From NCBI RefSeq assembly GCF_017303295.1, contig NZ_JAFKOK010000012.1:1-64000 (forward strand): a stretch of DNA of 64,000 nt, written 5' to 3'. Positions 16,764 to 64,000 of this stretch are shown here, one piece after another (position 1 is the stretch's first letter; every line of letters starts with the position of its first letter). The translations under genes were made by a program, and so were the position numbers. This DNA is from Rhodobacter sp. NTK016B (GTDB lineage Bacteria; Pseudomonadota; Alphaproteobacteria; Rhodobacterales; Rhodobacteraceae). Under the pieces are notes generated by a model, which saw only the letters and a program-made list of their open reading frames with translations, ran no database searches and was not told the origin of the DNA.

Positions 16764-17890
16764 TCCGCAGGTGAAAGCGCCGGTTCACGCCCGGCTTCGG
16801 CCTCGACATTAGAGCCCATGGCGGTGCCGCGCCAATCAAATCCCCGCCGCGCGAAGGTCGCGAGCCACAGCGCGGGCAGCATCGCGTCGCGAAGCGGCAG
16901 GACGGCGATATCGCGCCACCCGGAAGGCCAGTGCGCGCGCCGCATCAGCAGCGCCTCGGCACCGTACCACACCACCAGATAGCTCAGCGCGGTCAGCGGT
17001 CCGGCGGCGCTCAGGGCCATCAGCGCGGGCAGGGCAGCGCCGTTCAGGATTTCAAGCGTGAAGAGACGCGGAAAGGCATCGCGCCGCACCCGGCTCCAGC
17101 GCAATTGCCGGTCCCAGACCTGCCGCAGGCGACGGTATCCGATCGGCTGGGCGAAGGGGGCAGGCGTCAGTCGCACGTTCAGCCCCAGCCCGCGTACCAT
17201 CTTCGTCGCCGTGGCGTCTTCGGCCATGTGACGGCCCAAAGCGGCGAAACCGCCGGCGCGCGCGATAAGCCCGCGATGAGTGAACATCGTCTTGCCCTGC
17301 GTGAACCCGTGCCCGAGGCTGTCGGCGGCCAGTTGCAGCCGCGCCTGATTGGCGTTGAGCAGGGCGCATTCCAGATGCCCGCCCCAGCCTTCGGGCCTGA
17401 TCCCCACCGGCGGAGAGGAAACGAGGCCGGTCCCCGCAGCCCAGCTTGCGACCACGCTGCGCAGGTAGTCGCGCGGCAATAACAGGTTCGCATCGGTCAT
17501 GCAGATCCAGTCCGATTCCGCCGCCTGCCAGCCCTTCCACAGGTTGTTGAGCTTGGGATTCGACGTGATCGGATCGCTGCCGATCAGGATCCGGGCGGGA
17601 ATTGCCGGATGACGCGCGATCAGCGACCGGACCAGCGCGATCGCCGGGTCGTCGGGTGTCTGGGCGCAGAAGATGATTTCGTAGTCGGGATAATCCTGCG
17701 CGAAACTGCTTTCGAGGGTCTCCGCATCGAACGGATCGATCCCGCAGACCGGCCGCAACAGGGTGACGCGGGGGGTGCCGATCTCGGGCCGGGGCGGGCG
17801 CGGACGCCGCAGGCGGTGCAGCGTCAGCGCCACGCTGGCCAGATGAAGGGCAAGGAACAGCGCCGCGAGCAGGGCCAGCAACAAGGGCAT
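16760..17890 (-). CDS. Ceramide glucosyltransferase-like glycosyltransferase (GT21)
   Basis: 376 residues. N-terminal membrane anchor (LLLALLAALFLALHLASVAL), then a GT21 domain: LLRPVCGIDPFDAETLESSF, NPKLNNLWKGWQAAESDWIC, the DXD-like MTDANLLLP, the acidic EDATATK motif, and RQLRWSRVRR, the (Q/R)XXRW acceptor motif of GT21 enzymes. Two or three C-terminal hydrophobic segments follow. Likely glucosylates ceramide or another lipid at the cytoplasmic membrane face. One nucleotide separates it from the metallophosphoesterase stop; a 4-nt overlap joins it to the DedA gene. Confidence 0.85.
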   Translation of the reverse strand: MPLLLALLAALFLALHLASVALTLHRLRRPRPPRPEIGTPRVTLLRPVCGIDPFDAETLESSFAQDYPDYEIIFCAQTPDDPAIALVRSLIARHPAIPARILIGSDPITSNPKLNNLWKGWQAAESDWICMTDANLLLPRDYLRSVVASWAAGTGLVSSPPVGIRPEGWGGHLECALLNANQARLQLAADSLGHGFTQGKTMFTHRGLIARAGGFAALGRHMAEDATATKMVRGLGLNVRLTPAPFAQPIGYRRLRQVWDRQLRWSRVRRDAFPRLFTLEILNGAALPALMALSAAGPLTALSYLVVWYGAEALLMRRAHWPSGWRDIAVLPLRDAMLPALWLATFARRGFDWRGTAMGSNVEAEAGREPALSPAE

Positions 17891-54034: not shown

Positions 54035-55201
54035 TCAGCCCAGCAATTCTTTGATCGCGCGGTGAAAGATCCCGATGCCCTGGGGGATCAGCGTGTCGGG
54101 GAAATCGTAGGTCTGGGTGTGCAGCCCCGGAACTTCGCGCCCCGCGCCCAGCAGCAGCATCGCCGATTTCGATACCGATCCGAAGCGTCCGAAATCCTCG
54201 GAGGCGCGCATCGGCAGGTCGCCGGTCTCATGCGCGATGCCCTGCGCCTCAAGCGCGCGGGCCAAAAGCGCGGCGGCATCGGCATCGTTGGTGCAGGCGC
54301 TGAAACGGTCGTGGATCTCGAACTCCACGTTCAGACCCGACGCCGTGGCCTGTTCGCGCGCAAGGCTTTGCGCCTGATCCAGCAGCGCCTCAAGATCGCT
54401 GTCGCCCAGCCCGCGCAACGTCACCCAAAGCTCGGCCTCGCCGGGCGCGATGCCGAAGGCCGGCTCGCCCATGCGCAGATGCGTGATCGTCGCCAGCCTG
54501 AACCCCGGGCCCATCGCCCCGCCCGGCCCCATGGCGCGCAGCCCGTCGATCAGCCGGGGCAGGGCGGGGGTCGGGGCCTTGCCGTCTTCGGGGGTCGAGG
54601 CATGGGCCGTGGCGCCCGTAAACCGGATTTTCAGCCCCGCGGACGCGCAGTTCATCGGTCCCGGAGCAATCCACGCCTGTCCCAGCGCGATGCCGGGCAT
54701 GTTGTGCAAGCTCAGCGACCAGTCGGGGGTCAGAGCTTCGAAACGTGGATCGCCCATCACGGCTTTTGCGCCCGATCCGTCTTCCTCGGCGGGTTGGAAC
54801 ATCAGCACGACGCGCCCGCGCTCGGGCCGGTTGCGCGACAACAGGCGCGCCAGTCCCAGCAGGATCGTCATATGCCCGTCATGCCCGCACAGATGCCCGA
54901 CGCCCGGCCTTTCGCTGGCATGCGGCATGGCGCCGAGTTCCACGATCGGCAGCGCATCCAGCTCGGCACGGATCATCAATGTGGGGCCGGGCTGCGCGCC
55001 GTGATAAACAGCCGCGACGCCGTGACCGCCCAAGCTCGTCACCAGATCGTCAGGCGCAGGCAGGGCCTCGGCGACACGCTCCGCGGTCCCGGCTTCTTGC
55101 CCCGAGACTTCGGGCTGGCGGTGCAGGGCGTGGCGGAACGCGGTCAGCTCGACCATATCGGCATTGGTCAGCATTTTGCGCGCTCCAAATCTTTCGAGCA
55201 T
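54035..55201 (-). CDS. M20 family amidohydrolase
   Basis: 388 residues. Metal-ligand motifs: GHLCGHDGHMTILLGLARLL, FQPAEEDGSGA and the dimerisation domain FTGATAHASTPEDG. Fits hippurate/N-acyl-amino acid hydrolases. It is the last gene of a minus-strand run with a 60-residue protein and an FAD monooxygenase. Start 55201, which overlaps the preceding stop; ATG 55174 is an alternative that still overlaps it slightly. Confidence 0.87.
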   Translation of the reverse strand: MLERFGARKMLTNADMVELTAFRHALHRQPEVSGQEAGTAERVAEALPAPDDLVTSLGGHGVAAVYHGAQPGPTLMIRAELDALPIVELGAMPHASERPGVGHLCGHDGHMTILLGLARLLSRNRPERGRVVLMFQPAEEDGSGAKAVMGDPRFEALTPDWSLSLHNMPGIALGQAWIAPGPMNCASAGLKIRFTGATAHASTPEDGKAPTPALPRLIDGLRAMGPGGAMGPGFRLATITHLRMGEPAFGIAPGEAELWVTLRGLGDSDLEALLDQAQSLAREQATASGLNVEFEIHDRFSACTNDADAAALLARALEAQGIAHETGDLPMRASEDFGRFGSVSKSAMLLLGAGREVPGLHTQTYDFPDTLIPQGIGIFHRAIKELLG

Positions 55202-57008: not shown

Positions 57009-58043
57009 TCAGCCCCGCCCGGTATGAAACAGCACGCCGCCTTTCGCGGCGGGAAACCCGCAGGCCAGAACCGAGACCAGATCGACCACGGCGGGATCGA
57101 CCACCAGCGCGCGGCCCGCGCGGATCAAGGCGTTGACCAGACGGAGTTGGATCTCGGCTTCGGGGATTTCACGCGGGGCAAGTCCTGCGAAATGCGCCTC
57201 TTCGCGGGCGAGATCCTCGATCAGCGGGTCAATCACGCGCCCGCCCCCGCCCGGATACCGATACCAGCCGACGCCGCCCTTGCGGCCCAGCCGCCCCTCG
57301 GGGACCATGCGGTCGATCACCGGCAGATCATGGCCGGTGACGCGGTGGCGGGCATGGGCGCGGTCGAGCCCGCGCAGATCCTGCGCCGCGCAGGGGCCAA
57401 GCGCGAAACCATAGGCTTCGGCGGCGGCGTCGACCTCCCACGGGGTGGAACCCTGAAAGACGAGCGCTTCGGCCTCGTCTTCCAGCGCGGCGATGAGTTT
57501 GGCGCCCAGAAACAGCGGCACGACAATCGGCAACGCCCCCAGCGCACGGGCGAAACCCACCGCGCGTGGGTCCGAACCCTTGGCGATTTCGATCAGGTCG
57601 ATGGCGGGCGGCGGGGCGTCGGTGTCGATCAGCGCCACGGGGCCGCGCAACCCGTCCTTCAACGCGCCAAGACTGACGCCGGGGCCAAGGCTGACGCGCA
57701 GCGCTTCGGGGGCGATGCGGGCCATTTCGCTCAGCAAGGCCAGCCGCAGGCCGATATCCCCTTCCGAGGCTTCGACGATGACCTCCGCGCTTTCGGCCGT
57801 GGCGCTGTCGGTCGTCAGCGTGATGCCGTCCAGCCGCCCGGCCCGTGTCAGTGCGTCGCGGGCGCGGGTCAGGTCCCAGTCATCGGCTTCGATCAGCGCG
57901 ACTTCGGCGCCCGCCGTGACCATCGCTACGGCCAGCCCCAGCGCCTGCGGGCTGCCGCCCGCCACCGCCGCGCGGGACAGCGGCATCGCCTCGCCCTGCG
58001 ACAGCCGGGCGCGGATCTGGGCGAGATGGTCGGCAGGGCTCAA
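57009..58043 (-). CDS. 3-hydroxyacyl-CoA dehydrogenase-like protein with altered NAD and catalytic motifs
   Basis: 344 residues. The C-terminal 3HCDH half is recognisable (GPCAAQDLRGLDRAHARHR, PEGRLGRKGGVGWYRYPG). The N-terminal Rossmann motif reads AVAGGSPQALGLAVAMVTAG instead of GxGxMG, and the catalytic His of the usual HFFNP segment is absent (ALIDTDAPPPAIDLIEI). A role on 3-hydroxyadipyl-CoA in the box pathway is plausible from context, but activity is doubtful. Its start overlaps the boxR stop (ATGA). Confidence 0.72.
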   Translation of the reverse strand: MSPADHLAQIRARLSQGEAMPLSRAAVAGGSPQALGLAVAMVTAGAEVALIEADDWDLTRARDALTRAGRLDGITLTTDSATAESAEVIVEASEGDIGLRLALLSEMARIAPEALRVSLGPGVSLGALKDGLRGPVALIDTDAPPPAIDLIEIAKGSDPRAVGFARALGALPIVVPLFLGAKLIAALEDEAEALVFQGSTPWEVDAAAEAYGFALGPCAAQDLRGLDRAHARHRVTGHDLPVIDRMVPEGRLGRKGGVGWYRYPGGGGRVIDPLIEDLAREEAHFAGLAPREIPEAEIQLRLVNALIRAGRALVVDPAVVDLVSVLACGFPAAKGGVLFHTGRG

Positions 58044-58957
58044 GACAGGAAGCCGCGCTCGTCAATGAGCGCCAGAAGATCGGACACGGAGTCGTCGACG
58101 CTGCGCCCGGACGTGTCGAGCTTGGCGCGGGCCTGATCGTAGAGCGTCTCGCGGCTGGTCAGGATGAACTTGAGCTGGTCCATCGCTTCGGGATTGCCGG
58201 CCATGGGCCGCAGATCGCCCTGTTCGCGCACGCGCGTCATGTGCTCGGCCGGGGACGCCTTGACCCAGATCGTGTGGAAATGGCCCAGCAACGTCTTGTA
58301 GGTCTCGGGTTCCGAGACGATGCCACCGGCCACGGCAAGGATCATCGAATCGTGCGTGGCGATGATCCGGCCAAGCGCCTGCGCTTCCAGCCGGCGGTAG
58401 CCTTCCTGCCCGTAGAAGGCCATCACCTCGTTGACGGGCATGCCCGCCTGATCTTCGATCTCGCGGTTCAGCTCGACAAAGGGCAGGCCCAGCGTTTCGC
58501 CGACCTTCATTCCCAGCGTTGATTTGCCCGCCCCGCGCAGGCCGATCAGCGCGATGCGGTGGCGGCGCGCCGTGGCTTCGGGCTGCGGCGACAGGATTTC
58601 GAGCACCTTCGCGCGCCGGTCATTCGGGGCGCGGCGATAGAGATCGGCCACCTGCAGCGCTTCGGATGTCCACGGGTCCTCGTCGCCGACCAGCCATTCG
58701 ATCCGGTGATCCAGCGCATCCGCCACGCGCTGCAGAAGCCCGATCGAGATATTGCCTTCGCCCGCTTCCAGCAGCGCCAGATAGCGCGGCGACACGCCCG
58801 AGGATTCCGACAGCACGCGGCGCGGAATCCCCTTGAGTTCGCGCGCCTTGCGGACCCGTTCCCCCACGCGCAGGATCAGCGCCCGGGCCGCGTCTTCGCC
58901 AAGGCTGCCGGTATCGGAGGAAACGGCTTCGCCGCGGAAGTTGGTGATCTCGGACAT
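58040..58957 (-). CDS. boxR: BoxR, benzoyl-CoA-responsive repressor (XRE HTH + shikimate-kinase-like domain)
   Basis: 305 residues. N-terminal HTH (RKARELKGIPRRVLSESSGV, SPRYLALLEAGEGNIS) and C-terminal shikimate-kinase-like domain with P-loop GLRGAGKST (139-147). This two-domain build is diagnostic of BoxR/BzdR, whose C-terminal domain binds benzoyl-CoA. Start 58957 (MSEITNFRGE). Lies downstream of boxCBA and the thioesterase. Confidence 0.94.
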   Translation of the reverse strand: MSEITNFRGEAVSSDTGSLGEDAARALILRVGERVRKARELKGIPRRVLSESSGVSPRYLALLEAGEGNISIGLLQRVADALDHRIEWLVGDEDPWTSEALQVADLYRRAPNDRRAKVLEILSPQPEATARRHRIALIGLRGAGKSTLGMKVGETLGLPFVELNREIEDQAGMPVNEVMAFYGQEGYRRLEAQALGRIIATHDSMILAVAGGIVSEPETYKTLLGHFHTIWVKASPAEHMTRVREQGDLRPMAGNPEAMDQLKFILTSRETLYDQARAKLDTSGRSVDDSVSDLLALIDERGFLS

Positions 58958-59121: not shown

Positions 59122-59541
59122 CTATTCTGCTGAGGGTTCGAGATGGGCTTCGATCAGCGCGCGCACGGCATCCGGCGGCGGCGCCTTGGTAAAGGTCCGC
59201 GCATCGGTGAAGACGCAGGTGAAACGCCCCTCAAAGCAGACCGCCCCGTCCTGCCGCCCGATCACCCGCCAGTCGATCGAGGTCAGTCCCAGCCGCGTCG
59301 GTGCGACATCGCAGATCAGCCGGTGGCGCGGCGTGATCGGTGCGCGGAAGTCGAGATTCATGTTGACGAAGGGCGAGCCGAAGCCGTGGTCCATCTCCAT
59401 CTGATACCAGCCGCCGCCGAAACGGTCTTCCCACCAGCCGTTGATCGCATCCAGCGCGAACCACGGGATCCGCGCCGTGTAGACGATATTCGCGGGGTCG
59501 CAATCGCCCCACGCGACGCGGATCTCGTGCTGATAGGTCAT
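59122..59541 (-). CDS. Hotdog-fold aryl-CoA thioesterase of the box cluster
   Basis: 139 residues. 4HBT motif RVAWGDCDPANIVYTARIPW with the catalytic Asp, and FALDAINGWWEDRFGGGWYQ. Thioesterases accompany box genes and are thought to recycle CoA from dead-end aryl-CoA esters. Start 59541 shares one base with the boxA stop, so it is tightly coupled. Confidence 0.9.
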   Translation of the reverse strand: MTYQHEIRVAWGDCDPANIVYTARIPWFALDAINGWWEDRFGGGWYQMEMDHGFGSPFVNMNLDFRAPITPRHRLICDVAPTRLGLTSIDWRVIGRQDGAVCFEGRFTCVFTDARTFTKAPPPDAVRALIEAHLEPSAE

Positions 59542-60722
59542 CAGTAGGTTTCGACGTGGTAGCGGCCCTCGTCGCGCATTGCGTCGCGGGTGGCCTCCCA
59601 GGCCTGTCCGGTGCTTTCGCTGATCGAGCGGAACGCCTCTTCCACGCCCTGCTCCATGCCGCGCAGACCGCAGATGTAGATATGCGTGTTCGGATCGGCC
59701 AGCAGGTCGGCGACCGCATCCTGCTCGTTCATCATCCGGTGCTGCACATATTCCTTCTGCTCGCCGGGCTGACGGCTGAAGACGAGGTGCTTTTTCAAAA
59801 GCTGCTCGGGCACTTTGCCCAAGGGGCCGAAATAGGGCAGCGAGTCGGGCGTGCGGGCCCCGAAGAACATCGTCATGTCGCCCGCGCCCGCGGCTTTCGA
59901 GCGCTGACGCCGCATAGTGAACGCACGGAACGGTGCCGAGCCGGTGCCGGTGCAGACCATCAGCAGCCGGGCCGAGGGGTCTTCGGGCATCAGGAAGGTC
60001 GCGCCGAACGGGCCGGTGACCTTGATCTCGTCGCCGATCTTCAGGTCGCAGACATAGTTCGAGCACAGGCCCTTGTCCTCGCGCTTCACGGTCAGCGAGA
60101 GGTTGTTGTAATTGGGCCGTTCGCCGTCGCGCGGGCTCGACACCGAATAGAGGCGCGGCAAATGCGGCTTGCCGTCGGCATCGGTGCCGGGCGGGAGGAT
60201 GCCGATCGACTGGCCTTCGAGCACCGGAAAGGGCTGAGCGCCGAAATCGAGGATGATGTGGCGCACGTCCGAACCCGATTCCTCGGAGGTCAGGCGGTAA
60301 TTGCCGGTCACCCGCGCGGTCGCGGGCTTGCCCAGATTGTACAGGTTCACCGAGGGCTTCGCGGCGCTGGCGGGCGCCTTCGACTTGCCGCCGGCGCCGG
60401 CATGGGCTTCGGCCAGCAGCGCGGCCATCGCGTCATCGAGCGCCTCGACGCCCGAGGCCTCGCCGATTTCTTCCTGCGCGGGCAACTCGTCCCACTCGAA
60501 TTGTTCGTCCAGCGAATAGGGCGTTTCGACCACGCGCCATTCGTCGATCGAGCCGGTCGGGCAGACCGGGATGCAATCCATGCAGAAATCGCATTTCTCG
60601 GCATCGACGACGACGTTGTTGTCGTCATGGGTGATCGCCTCGACCGGACAGGTCATCTCGCAGGTATAGCAGCGGATGCAGATTTCGGGGTCGATCAGGT
60701 GCTGTTTGAGGGGCTTGTTCAT
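59541..60722 (-). CDS. boxA: Benzoyl-CoA 2,3-epoxidase reductase component BoxA
   Basis: 393 residues. Two ferredoxin motifs at the N terminus (Cys 15/18/21/25 and 44/47/50/54), a variable acidic/Ala-rich linker (about 90-135), and an FNR-type module with RLYSVSSPRD (FAD) and CTGTGSAPFRAF (NADPH). Transfers electrons from NADPH to BoxB. Start 60722 (MNKPLKQHLI); its ATG overlaps the stop of a 51-residue ORF. Confidence 0.96.
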   Translation of the reverse strand: MNKPLKQHLIDPEICIRCYTCEMTCPVEAITHDDNNVVVDAEKCDFCMDCIPVCPTGSIDEWRVVETPYSLDEQFEWDELPAQEEIGEASGVEALDDAMAALLAEAHAGAGGKSKAPASAAKPSVNLYNLGKPATARVTGNYRLTSEESGSDVRHIILDFGAQPFPVLEGQSIGILPPGTDADGKPHLPRLYSVSSPRDGERPNYNNLSLTVKREDKGLCSNYVCDLKIGDEIKVTGPFGATFLMPEDPSARLLMVCTGTGSAPFRAFTMRRQRSKAAGAGDMTMFFGARTPDSLPYFGPLGKVPEQLLKKHLVFSRQPGEQKEYVQHRMMNEQDAVADLLADPNTHIYICGLRGMEQGVEEAFRSISESTGQAWEATRDAMRDEGRYHVETY

Positions 60723-60874
60723 GCGCTTGGCTTCCGGGGGTGCAGCACCGTCTCGGGCAGACGGTTCAGTTCGAGGAGGCTCCAGCAGCGCCCGGTGCAA
60801 TCGGGGCAGCCGAGACAGGAACCTGGCTTGAGGGCATGGCGCTTGGCGTCAAGGGCAGTGCGTTCGACGGGCAT
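60719..60874 (-). CDS. 51-residue Cys-rich protein coupled to boxA
   Basis: My translation: starts MPVERTALDA, with CLGCPDCTGRCW at residues 20-31, that is Cys 20, 23, 26 and 30, a ferredoxin-like C-x2-C-x2-C-x3-C pattern. A strong GGGAGG lies 5 nt before the ATG at 60874, and the stop overlaps the boxA start (ATGA). It could carry one Fe-S or Zn site; BoxA next door has two such motifs. I do not recognise a family. It is short enough to be missed by annotation. Confidence 0.72.
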   Translation of the reverse strand: MPVERTALDAKRHALKPGSCLGCPDCTGRCWSLLELNRLPETVLHPRKPSA

Positions 60875-60963
60875 CGGGACCTCCCTTCCGTTTGCCTTGC
60901 TGTCGGGGCGGAGACGCTCGGGTCCCCGCCCCGCAAGGGTGGGATGTCATCCCACCATCGGCC

Positions 60964-62415
60964 TTAAGCCATGTACAGCTTCACATACTCGAAGTCGCCG
61001 GGCTTGTTGTCGATGCCGACTTTCGGCGGGGCGATCCAGCTGGCGAACTGACCGGGCTCGGTGACCGGCTTCATCAGCGACTGGATGAAGTCGCCATCGG
61101 CATGGGTCGGCAGCCAGTCGTTCTTGCGCTTGTCGTATTCTTCGCCCGACAGAAGGTTGCCATCGGGGTCGAAGGTCTTGCCCGAGAACACGCCGATCTG
61201 GCGGTGGAAGCTTTCATGCGGCAGCTTGAGTTCGAACTCGATCCCGGATTTCTCGATGATCTTGTTCCAACGGCCGACGCCGCCCGCCGCATCGCGGGTG
61301 TAATCGTCGCGCAGGCGCATGTTGATCGCGGTCAGCGCCGGCACTTCGTGGCGCACGAGCTTGCCGTCGACAAAGTCCCACACAGGATAGGTGTCGTTCT
61401 TCAGCTGGTGATCGTCTTTCAGCCGGTGCTCCATGTACCGGCCTTTGATGCCTGCGTTGAACGCGTTGGCGGCGTTGGTCGAGACTTCCTGACCAAACAG
61501 GTCCAACGACAGCGTGTAGTGCAGGTTCAGCTTCTTCTGGATCGTCGGCAGGTCGATGACGCCCAGATCGCGGATCTTGTCGATGTCATAGGGGTCGGTG
61601 ATGCCATTGGCGTTCATCACCTCGCACGTCTTCTCGATCGTGCGGCCCACGCCGGTTTCGCCCACGAACATGTGGTGCGCTTCTTCGGTCAGCATGAAGC
61701 GGCAGGTGCGCGACAGCGGGTCGAACCCGGACTGAGCGAGCGACTCCAGCTGCATCTTGCCGTCACGGTCGGTGAAATAGGTGAACATGAAGAACGACAG
61801 CCAGTCGGGCGTTTCCTCGTTGAAGGCCCCCAGCATGCGCGGCGCTTCTTCCGAACCCGACGAGCGGACCAGCAGATCGTCGGCCTCTTCACGGCCATCC
61901 TTGCCGAAGTACTTCTGCAGCAGATACACCATCGCCCACAGGTGACGGCCCTCTTCCACGTTGACCTGGAACAGGTTGCGCATGTCGTAGAGCGACGGCG
62001 CAGTCAGGCCGAGGAAGCGCTGCTGCTCGACCGAACCCGGCTCGGTATCGCCCTGAATGACGATCAGGCGCTTGAGCATGTTGCGGTATTCGCCCGGAAC
62101 TTCCTGCCACGCGGGCTGGCCCATATGTTCGCCGCAGGGGATGACACGGCCCTCGACCTCGGGCGCCAGCAGAACGCCCCAGCGGTATTCCGGCATCTTC
62201 ACGTAGTCGAACTTGGCCCAGCCTTTCGGGTCAACCGAAACGGCGGTGCGCAGATAGACCATGCTCTTCTGGAAGTTCTGCGGGATCAGGTCGTTCCACC
62301 AGTTGATGTAACCGGGGTGCCATTTCTCGAGCGCCTTGAGCACGCGCTTGTCCGACGACAGGCCCACATTGTTGGGGATCTGGGTGTCGTAGCTGACATT
62401 GATGAGGTCGATCAT
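60964..62415 (-). CDS. boxB: Benzoyl-CoA 2,3-epoxidase oxygenase component BoxB
   Basis: 483 residues. Diiron ligand segments EEGRHLWAM (154-162) and EEAHHMF (244-250) are visible. Inserts O2-derived oxygen into benzoyl-CoA to form the 2,3-epoxide. Start 62415 (MIDLINVSYD) follows CTGGAGGAG. Downstream of boxC, with a palindromic repeat pair in the 98-nt gap. Confidence 0.97.
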   Translation of the reverse strand: MIDLINVSYDTQIPNNVGLSSDKRVLKALEKWHPGYINWWNDLIPQNFQKSMVYLRTAVSVDPKGWAKFDYVKMPEYRWGVLLAPEVEGRVIPCGEHMGQPAWQEVPGEYRNMLKRLIVIQGDTEPGSVEQQRFLGLTAPSLYDMRNLFQVNVEEGRHLWAMVYLLQKYFGKDGREEADDLLVRSSGSEEAPRMLGAFNEETPDWLSFFMFTYFTDRDGKMQLESLAQSGFDPLSRTCRFMLTEEAHHMFVGETGVGRTIEKTCEVMNANGITDPYDIDKIRDLGVIDLPTIQKKLNLHYTLSLDLFGQEVSTNAANAFNAGIKGRYMEHRLKDDHQLKNDTYPVWDFVDGKLVRHEVPALTAINMRLRDDYTRDAAGGVGRWNKIIEKSGIEFELKLPHESFHRQIGVFSGKTFDPDGNLLSGEEYDKRKNDWLPTHADGDFIQSLMKPVTEPGQFASWIAPPKVGIDNKPGDFEYVKLYMA

Positions 62416-62434
62416 GGGTTCTCCTCCAGGGGAT

Positions 62435-62513: not shown

Positions 62514-64000
62514 TCAAACGCGCTGCATGTTGTAATCGCCGCGCACGCCCGTGCCGTAGCGCTGCAGCGCGCCGTCGGTGCCGGTGGCGTTGGGACGGTT
62601 GAAGATCCAGTTCTGCCACGCGGTCAGGCGACCGAAGATCCGGGTTTCCATCGTCTCGGGGCCGGCAAAGCGCAGATTGGCTTCCATGCCGGTCATCGCG
62701 TCGGGGCTGAACGAGGCACGCTCTTCCATGAAGATGCGGATCTCGTCTTCCCAGTCGATGTCGTCGAAGGCTTCGGTCACAAGGCCCGCTTCCATCGCGT
62801 CATCGGCTTCCATCGCCTCGCCCAGCTTGCCCTTGAGCGTCTCGACCGCCTCGGGCTCGCCCAGAAAGCGGGTTTCCAGACGGGTCAGATCGTTGCCCAT
62901 CGGGAAGGGGCCGAAATTGCCCTCGGAAAGCGTGACGGTGGCGACCGGGCGGTTGTCGCCTTCGAACTCGCCATCCATCATGTAGCTGCGGTCCGAGGCC
63001 CAGAGCAGTTCGGCGAGGAAGCCCGCATAGCACGAGCCGTTCTCGACCAACGCCACCAGCGACCGCGAGGTCACGTCGACGCGCTTCAGGACGCGCTTCC
63101 AGTATTGCAGGATCTCGCCCGCCAGCCAGTGATCCTTGTTCTCCAACATGAAGGCTTCATGCGCCAGCACGGCTTCCGCGTCGCCCTGCGTGCGGAACGC
63201 CACAAGGCCCAGTTCCATCTCGTTGAGGCGCAGCTCAAGGATCGCGTCGTCGAATTCCCGCGCAAGGCGCAGCATCCACGACTGATCGCCCTCGGCGACC
63301 AGATCCTCGACCGAGGCCGGGACGTCGCGGTCGGGGCCGTTCAGCGTGATAGTGACCTTGCGGCCTTCGCGGTCCACATCGACCTCGACCAGCGAGTAGT
63401 GGATCGAGCCGTTGTCATCGATCGTCTTTTTCAGCGGGTTCAGCGCAATGCCGGTGCCGGTCGCCTTATCCGAGGCGGCGGCGAATTCCTTCGCGCGCTC
63501 GGCGACGATGTCGTCGAATTTCGAGGTCGCGACGACCTCGTCCACCAGCCGCCATTGCTTGGCGCGCTTGCCCTTGATGCCTTCTTCCAGCGAGCAGAAG
63601 ATGTCGGCCAGATCGCGGCGCACCTTGCGCTTGTCGGTGACGCGGGTCAGCCCGCCGGTGCCGGGCAGCACGGCCAAGAGCGGCACTTCGGGCAAAGCCA
63701 CGGACGAGGTGCTGTCATCGACCAGCATGATGTGGTTGCAGGCCAGCGCCAGCTCATAGCCGCCCCCGGCGCAGGCGCCTTTCACGGCGGCGACGTATTT
63801 CTGACCCGAATCGGCTTCGGCGGCTTCGAATGTGTTGCGGGTCTCGTTGGTGAATTTGCAGAAGTTCACCTTGTGGGCATGGGTCGCGCCGCCCAGCATG
63901 CGGATATTGGCCCCGGCGCAGAACACCTTGTCCTTGCCCGAGCGCATGACGACCACCTTCACCTCGGGATGTTCGAAGCGCATACGCTGCACAACATCCG
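62514..64000 (-). CDS. boxC: Benzoyl-CoA dihydrodiol lyase BoxC, 5' end beyond window
   Basis: At least 495 residues; the family has about 555, so roughly 60 N-terminal residues are missing at the right edge. Enoyl-CoA hydratase fold: KVFCAGANIRMLGGA, GACAGGGYELALACNHIMLV, and C-terminal FNRPNATGTDGALQRYGTGV. Opens the ring of the 2,3-epoxybenzoyl-CoA product to 3,4-dehydroadipyl-CoA semialdehyde plus formate. First visible gene of the box operon. Confidence 0.96.
   Translation of the reverse strand, partial: DVVQRMRFEHPEVKVVVMRSGKDKVFCAGANIRMLGGATHAHKVNFCKFTNETRNTFEAAEADSGQKYVAAVKGACAGGGYELALACNHIMLVDDSTSSVALPEVPLLAVLPGTGGLTRVTDKRKVRRDLADIFCSLEEGIKGKRAKQWRLVDEVVATSKFDDIVAERAKEFAAASDKATGTGIALNPLKKTIDDNGSIHYSLVEVDVDREGRKVTITLNGPDRDVPASVEDLVAEGDQSWMLRLAREFDDAILELRLNEMELGLVAFRTQGDAEAVLAHEAFMLENKDHWLAGEILQYWKRVLKRVDVTSRSLVALVENGSCYAGFLAELLWASDRSYMMDGEFEGDNRPVATVTLSEGNFGPFPMGNDLTRLETRFLGEPEAVETLKGKLGEAMEADDAMEAGLVTEAFDDIDWEDEIRIFMEERASFSPDAMTGMEANLRFAGPETMETRIFGRLTAWQNWIFNRPNATGTDGALQRYGTGVRGDYNMQRV

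Follow-up and report, generated by a model that had tools for sequence, protein, structure and literature searches.

A conserved four-cysteine small protein gene next to boxB in Rhodobacteraceae

The box locus and its small gene

One end of the window, i.e. the whole 64 kb stretch of DNA analysed here, carries a cluster of minus-strand genes of the benzoyl-CoA (box) benzoate pathway, three of which were assigned by curated NCBIfam models: (i) boxC, encoding the 2,3-epoxybenzoyl-CoA dihydrolase (62514..63998; TIGR03222, 847.5 bits for a cut-off of 712.3) and truncated by the end of the window; (ii) boxB, encoding the di-iron benzoyl-CoA 2,3-epoxidase subunit (60964..62418; TIGR03225, 914.9 bits, cut-off 499.1); (iii) boxA, encoding the reductase subunit with its two C-x2-C-x2-C-x3-C motifs (59541..60722; TIGR03224, 551.4 bits, cut-off 459.2). 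On the 3' side of boxA lie, on the same strand, a thioesterase gene (4HBT_2; 59122..59541) and then a regulator gene of the boxR type (58040..58954; HTH_3 plus a shikimate-kinase-like domain), which we take to be boxR, followed by a 3-hydroxyacyl-CoA dehydrogenase-like gene. A gene of the M20 peptidase family is found near the box genes (54035-55201, minus strand); we presume that it may encode a hippurate hydrolase feeding benzoate. Just beyond the window, upstream of boxC, there is a minus-strand DUF309-like gene (about 64326-64736 in window coordinates). Such a gene, whose Pfam assignment is based on a relative's copy, lies ahead of boxC in the majority of the box clusters mapped in Rhodobacteraceae and accompanies the small gene described below in some genomes devoid of boxB.

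Between boxB and boxA, an open reading frame of 51 codons (60719..60874, minus strand) encodes the protein MPVERTALDAKRHALKPGSCLGCPDCTGRCWSLLELNRLPETVLHPRKPSA, with the position and length given in a preliminary description of this DNA. Its four cysteines (residues 20, 23, 26 and 30) display the spacing C-x2-C-x2-C-x3-C, called ferredoxin-like in that description; in the six frames of the window, this pattern occurs four times: besides the small gene, BoxA contains it twice, and the remaining occurrence is at 17889. The two translational signals that had been pointed out can both be read directly: the stretch AGGGAGGT (60879..60886, minus strand), described as a strong ribosome-binding site, lies 4 bases 5' of the ATG, and the stop codon of the small gene (TGA, 60721-60719) overlaps the start codon of boxA (ATG, 60722-60720) in an ATGA (60719..60722, minus strand). 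The same overlap is common to 18 of the 27 loci that have a downstream boxA match, one of the 18 (L031) being nearly identical to the window (98% identity for the small-gene copy and 99.8% for BoxB). Note that the default minimum of Prodigal is 90 bases, which would make the remark that the gene is too short for default gene callers wrong.

The small gene starts 89 bases after the end of boxB. This spacer (60875..60963, minus strand) is predicted to fold into two GC-rich hairpins, at 60938-60956 and 60904-60933 (-47.3 kcal/mol, z -2.95). It contains no T run and is thus more likely to be an mRNA-stability element than a terminator; the hairpins possibly uncouple the level of boxB mRNA from that of boxA. 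The corresponding spacers of relatives are often more structured than their shuffled versions (z<=-2 in 12 of the 23 scored, from 24 hand-picked loci of which one was dropped for orientation).

Conservation of the small protein and its association with boxB

Using the 51 residues as a tblastn query, we found matches at E<=0.01 in 53 of 295 Rhodobacteraceae genomes, and a profile built from 29 members retrieved 46 of the 295 at E<1e-10; 45 of the tblastn genomes are among these 46, the other eight being weak matches that the profile did not confirm. Two alignments were used: A1 was drawn from 31 loci, of which L024 and L031 were set aside, and A2 contains 41 of the 43 distinct copies, L067 being omitted as frameshifted and L031 as near-identical. 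Within A2, the start methionine, the four cysteines, G28 (between Cys3 and Cys4) and P40 (ten residues past Cys4) are invariant in all 41 members; the divergent copies of genomes G017, G139 and G240 belong to neither alignment. The dN/dS ratio is 0.10-0.38 in 29 of the 31 pairs of small genes with more than 60% identity and undefined in the remaining two; for the window copy and that of a congener (G222), it is 0.33, with a synonymous excess (p 0.006). The conservation of the frame, the fixed residues and the dN/dS values thus indicate a protein-coding gene under purifying selection, and the possibility of a chance open reading frame is ruled out by the tblastn, profile and alignment data together with dN/dS. 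The preliminary description, which had considered the gene to be real, had proposed a tblastn search of the boxB-boxA gaps of other genomes and a dN/dS test, with a lack of conservation of the cysteines or of the frame in related box clusters as the outcome that would speak against it; the results bear it out, and the frame and the four cysteines are kept in every aligned member. We conclude that the gene belongs to a genuine, previously undescribed family encoding proteins of about 45-75 residues with a single Cys4 motif.

boxB is present in 62 of the 295 Rhodobacteraceae genomes, including 40 of the 46 with a strong profile match (Fisher p 4e-27, uncorrected for kinship), and in all 40 the small gene lies directly 3' of boxB. 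When all copies are considered, this arrangement is found in 44 of the 62 boxB genomes, the four extra copies, below the strong cut-off, being frameshifted (G009) or divergent (G017, G139 and G240); the copies of G139 and G240 have the spacing C-x3-C-x2-C-x3-C, with C-x3-C between Cys1 and Cys2. In genus g266, the small gene directly follows boxB in 13 of 13 boxB species. A common gene order is CoA ligase, DUF309, boxC, boxB, small gene, boxA, thioesterase and boxR; in many loci, it is preceded by genes for a TRAP transporter or followed by an AlkZ-like gene and the gene of a LacI regulator.

The small gene is not found wherever BoxAB is. It is absent from 17 of the 62 boxB genomes, and one further genome (G102), where the boxB locus stops at a contig edge, is undecidable. 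In 16 of the 17, the boxB-boxA gap spans 2-208 bases and contains no such Cys motif; in the last one (G056), a flavodoxin-like frame directly follows boxB and there is no small gene. The frames in the gaps were read in G056, G109, G061, G142 and G267, the remaining gaps being of 83 bases at most. Outside the family, none of the 21 boxB loci fetched has such a motif near boxB (three further second copies lie outside this set). BoxB thus probably works without the small protein.

Within the samples searched, the small-gene family is restricted to Rhodobacteraceae. A class-wide sample of 385 genomes gave no convincing match outside this family: only the genome of the window scored well, and the matches of three others were confined to short stretches, with E 5e-4 to 7e-4. 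At the level of the order, 38 of the 196 genomes sampled matched at E<=1e-4, all of them Rhodobacteraceae. A plasmid collection contained no relative of the small protein; boxB itself turned up in 11 of its records, which belong to Mycetohabitans, Nonomuraea and Embleya. On the BoxB tree, a quick build without bootstrap in which the outgroup does not form one side of a branch, the earliest-branching Rhodobacteraceae members are devoid of the small gene, and its presence requires at least ten changes, three of which are forced by well supported branches alone; this distribution is compatible with one gain followed by repeated loss. In a genome of another family (G481, locus L115), BoxB is nested within the Rhodobacteraceae part of the tree and the boxB-boxA gap is 109 bases, which hints that the box cluster was transferred and that the small gene did not travel with it.

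The small gene follows boxB and not boxA. In two genomes (G080 and G213), boxA is located on a separate contig and the small gene stays adjacent to boxB; in a third, 75% complete (G220), no boxA was found and the small gene lies beside boxB. Two others (G139, locus L182, and G240, locus L183) have no boxA in the genome and carry a flavodoxin gene downstream, the divergent small gene being kept. As read by eye, the flavodoxin gene of G056 (locus L076) directly follows boxB in a genome where no boxA was found. In these last three genomes, the flavodoxin gene has apparently replaced boxA, i.e. the reductase of BoxB has been swapped.

In all 41 genomes that have boxA and the small gene, the two Cys motifs of BoxA are intact, so that nothing is replaced by the small protein. 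The BoxA proteins of loci L079 (G069), L081 (G095) and L088 (G169) lack one cysteine of the second 4Fe-4S motif; these three genomes are early branches on the BoxB tree and have no small gene. A compensation for cysteines lost from BoxA was therefore discarded: one-motif BoxA occurs in genomes without the small gene and two-motif BoxA in those with it.

Retention of the small gene in genomes without boxB

Six of the 46 strong-profile genomes (G106, G193, G217, G239, G266 and G143) have neither boxB nor boxA, the copy of G143 being frameshifted; the genome-wide search for boxA covered these six, and five further genomes discussed below (G978, G979, G980, G992 and G998) stand outside it. Note that the boxB-less genomes were ascertained through the search for the small gene. 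In G193, G106 and G239, the small gene is found in what seems to be a box locus stripped of its other genes, next to the AlkZ-like and LacI genes; G193 and G106 also have TRAP genes upstream. In G266, the small gene comes after TRAP and DUF309 genes; in G217, the setting is different, the small gene being located after an aldolase gene.

The small gene is thus not absent where boxB is absent, and this holds in several genera. In genus g266 (19 species), where every boxB species has the gene, three of the six boxB-less species also have it and three have neither. The three boxB-less holders form one clade in the DUF309 tree (support 100/99) and in the dctM tree (99/96), which makes a single loss the simplest reading. 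Their copies give dN/dS values of 0.23 and 0.25, the third pair being undefined because dS is saturated, and a synonymous excess is seen in the three pairs (p 2e-6 to 3e-4). In genus g239, three of three species keep the gene without boxB, with dN/dS of 0.15-0.35, and so do two of two species in genus g194 (one genome being 75% complete). The constraint is weaker for the g194 pair, G193/G978 (dN/dS 0.59, p 0.08).

Since the small gene is retained without boxB, BoxB cannot be its sole partner. The related epoxidase PaaA was considered as a general partner and rejected: it is absent from G979, G980, G266, G992, G998 and G217 and present in G106, G193 and G239; altogether, only 4 of the 11 boxB-less genomes with the gene or a frameshifted copy have it, as does one of the three without the gene. 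The suggestion in the preliminary description of a factor for the BoxA/BoxB system therefore holds in part. The position directly 3' of boxB in 44 of 62 genomes agrees with it; the tie to BoxA does not stand (G080, G213, G139 and G240), box clusters without the gene exist both among early-branching members and outside the family, and retention in boxB-less genomes makes a role confined to this system too narrow.

Nature and possible function of the small protein

Searches of Pfam and NCBIfam gave no match for the window protein at E<=10. Across the 41 members, the best E-values are 0.0019 (Pfam) and 0.001 (NCBIfam), and 10 of the 14 weakly matched Pfam families are Fer4 models, although members also weakly match models unrelated to Fe-S proteins (e.g. 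Anti-TRAP, E 0.04); in PHROGs, three families were hit by one member each (best E 0.0087). Comparison of the profile with the PDB gave 84 matches at E<=10, the best 60 of which are all Fe-S proteins. The best one, PsaC (E 1e-4), rests on two stretches of 14-17 residues that are weak when taken singly (E about 0.1-0.5) and cover some 15 columns around the cysteines. A fission from the ferredoxin domain of BoxA finds no real support, the profile comparison giving a probability of 11% over 15 columns. Averaged over the members, propensities suggest a helix on each side of the Cys loop, the first being amphipathic with hydrophobic positions at -11, -7 and -4 relative to Cys1, and not a beta-alpha-beta arrangement; a structure model predicted from the single sequence is poor (pLDDT 55.4).

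Bacterial [4Fe-4S] ferredoxins have either two C-x2-C-x2-C-x3-C-P motifs or one such motif and a distant Cys-Pro. The window protein has a single motif and no proline after Cys4, a position occupied mostly by Ala, Arg or Trp across the family, and, as noted above, matches no family model; on both counts, it departs from a ferredoxin of this kind. Its likeness to 2[4Fe-4S] ferredoxins, PsaC and Fer4 proteins is local, limited to the Cys motif; the single motif, the missing Cys-Pro and the marginal matches of the members set it apart from them. The N-terminal ferredoxin domain of BoxA, encoded by the adjacent gene, has the same Cys spacing but comprises two motifs and Cys-Pro. What the family does share with half-ferredoxins is a single C-x2-C-x2-C-x3-C motif in a very short protein (about 45-75 residues). 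According to PMC12648291, half-ferredoxins ("semidoxins") have about 30 residues; those obtained by design form homodimers and transfer electrons, and natural ones occur almost only in anaerobes. The small protein resembles semidoxins, as described there, in being short and in having one Cys motif, in its case for one putative [4Fe-4S] site, where a classical ferredoxin has two; going by the same description, it differs from them in being longer, in having no Cys-Pro, in its helical appearance and in its location beside an oxygen-using enzyme. Our leading guess from the sequences is that the four cysteines form a single-motif Fe-S site. The preliminary description had left the choice between Fe-S and Zn; the strongest resemblance, weak as it is, is to 4Fe-4S motifs, the type of metal being a prediction. 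Titles and abstracts on box genes (Roseobacter, Rhodobacteraceae and Azoarcus evansii), on DUF309 and benzoate, and on small Fe-S proteins gave no account of this gene.

We tentatively favor, while granting it somewhat less than an even chance, a half-ferredoxin-like Fe-S miniprotein that helps BoxB and, in genomes without boxB, another partner. On this view, the four cysteines would be ligands of a single metal site, most likely a [4Fe-4S] cluster; their one motif would be half-ferredoxin-like, with a short helix on either side, and the protein would not adopt a full ferredoxin fold. Where there is a box operon, it would be a small redox or iron-supply partner at the side of the di-iron epoxidase BoxB, irrespective of the reductase in use, BoxA or a flavodoxin. 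In boxB-less genomes, the gene of the other partner would lie at another place or belong to what is left of the locus (TRAP transporter, DUF309 protein or CoA ligase). In the published scheme, as outlined in PMC5489048, BoxB is reduced by BoxA/NADPH and no third protein is named; this, together with the existence of box clusters without the small gene, makes a modulator or a redox or iron helper likelier than an obligate subunit.

A different metal or chemistry is conceivable: the miniprotein could use zinc or thiol-redox chemistry and serve the whole aromatic-acid locus (uptake and activation) as a regulator or as a sensor of redox or oxygen, instead of being an electron carrier or iron supplier for BoxB. 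The presence of the gene beside TRAP, DUF309 or CoA-ligase genes in several loci devoid of boxC, boxB, boxA and boxR would fit such a role, and the suggested amphipathic helix, with its hydrophobic positions before Cys1, could bind a protein. However, zinc sites often tolerate Cys-to-His exchange and no such exchange is seen in the 41 aligned members; the window protein has no Pfam or NCBIfam match and no zinc-finger family is prominent among the matches of the members; and there is no universal neighbour, DUF309, TRAP, boxR and thioesterase genes each being absent from some maps. We therefore regard this role as possible but doubtful.

That the protein delivers iron to, or assembles, the di-iron centre of BoxB seems unlikely to us. 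Small accessory proteins of the MmoD and DmpK type are known in bacterial di-iron monooxygenase systems; as here, going by their description, their small genes lie inside a di-iron oxygenase operon, and we know of no Cys4 motif in them. The small size of the protein and the location of its gene, which lies directly 3' of boxB and tracks boxB and not boxA, agree with such a role, but other boxB lineages do without the gene, and G979, G980, G266, G992, G998 and G217 keep it with neither boxB nor PaaA. A further reading, compatible with the others and in our view rather improbable, is that the copies of boxB-less genomes are decaying relics and that all function lies in box operons: the frameshift in G143, the weaker constraint on the G193/G978 pair and the variable remnants of the locus argue for it, although a frameshift also affects the copy of G009, a genome with boxB, and the boxB-less copies of the g266 clade and of g239 keep the four cysteines with dN/dS of 0.15-0.35 where defined (p<=0.0023). 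Finally, a carrier specific for BoxA, e.g. an extra ferredoxin, is very unlikely in spite of the ATGA coupling in 18 of 27 loci and the ferredoxin-like spacing, as it is largely refuted by the loci where boxA is off-contig (G080, G213), absent (G139, G240) or not found (the 75% complete G220), and BoxA keeps both of its own motifs in 41 of 41 genomes.

A bolder form of the half-ferredoxin-like reading, to which we give little credence as yet, is that a natural [4Fe-4S] miniprotein of aerobic bacteria was gained beside boxB within Rhodobacteraceae as a redox partner of the epoxidase independent of its reductase and was re-used for another partner in lineages that lost the epoxidase. As natural one-motif proteins are found almost only in anaerobes in the account of PMC12648291, the small protein would then be an example from aerobes, and one placed among known genes.

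Altogether, these data bring a conserved and previously undescribed gene into the benzoyl-CoA (box) pathway of benzoate degradation and point to a factor for BoxB outside the BoxA/NADPH scheme outlined in PMC5489048. The lineages that keep the gene without boxB constitute a natural experiment through which its second partner could be identified. If the single motif does hold a [4Fe-4S] cluster, the family would provide, in living organisms, a half-ferredoxin-like protein that tolerates oxygen and is amenable to genetics, a stage represented hitherto, as presented in PMC12648291, mainly by designs and a few anaerobes.
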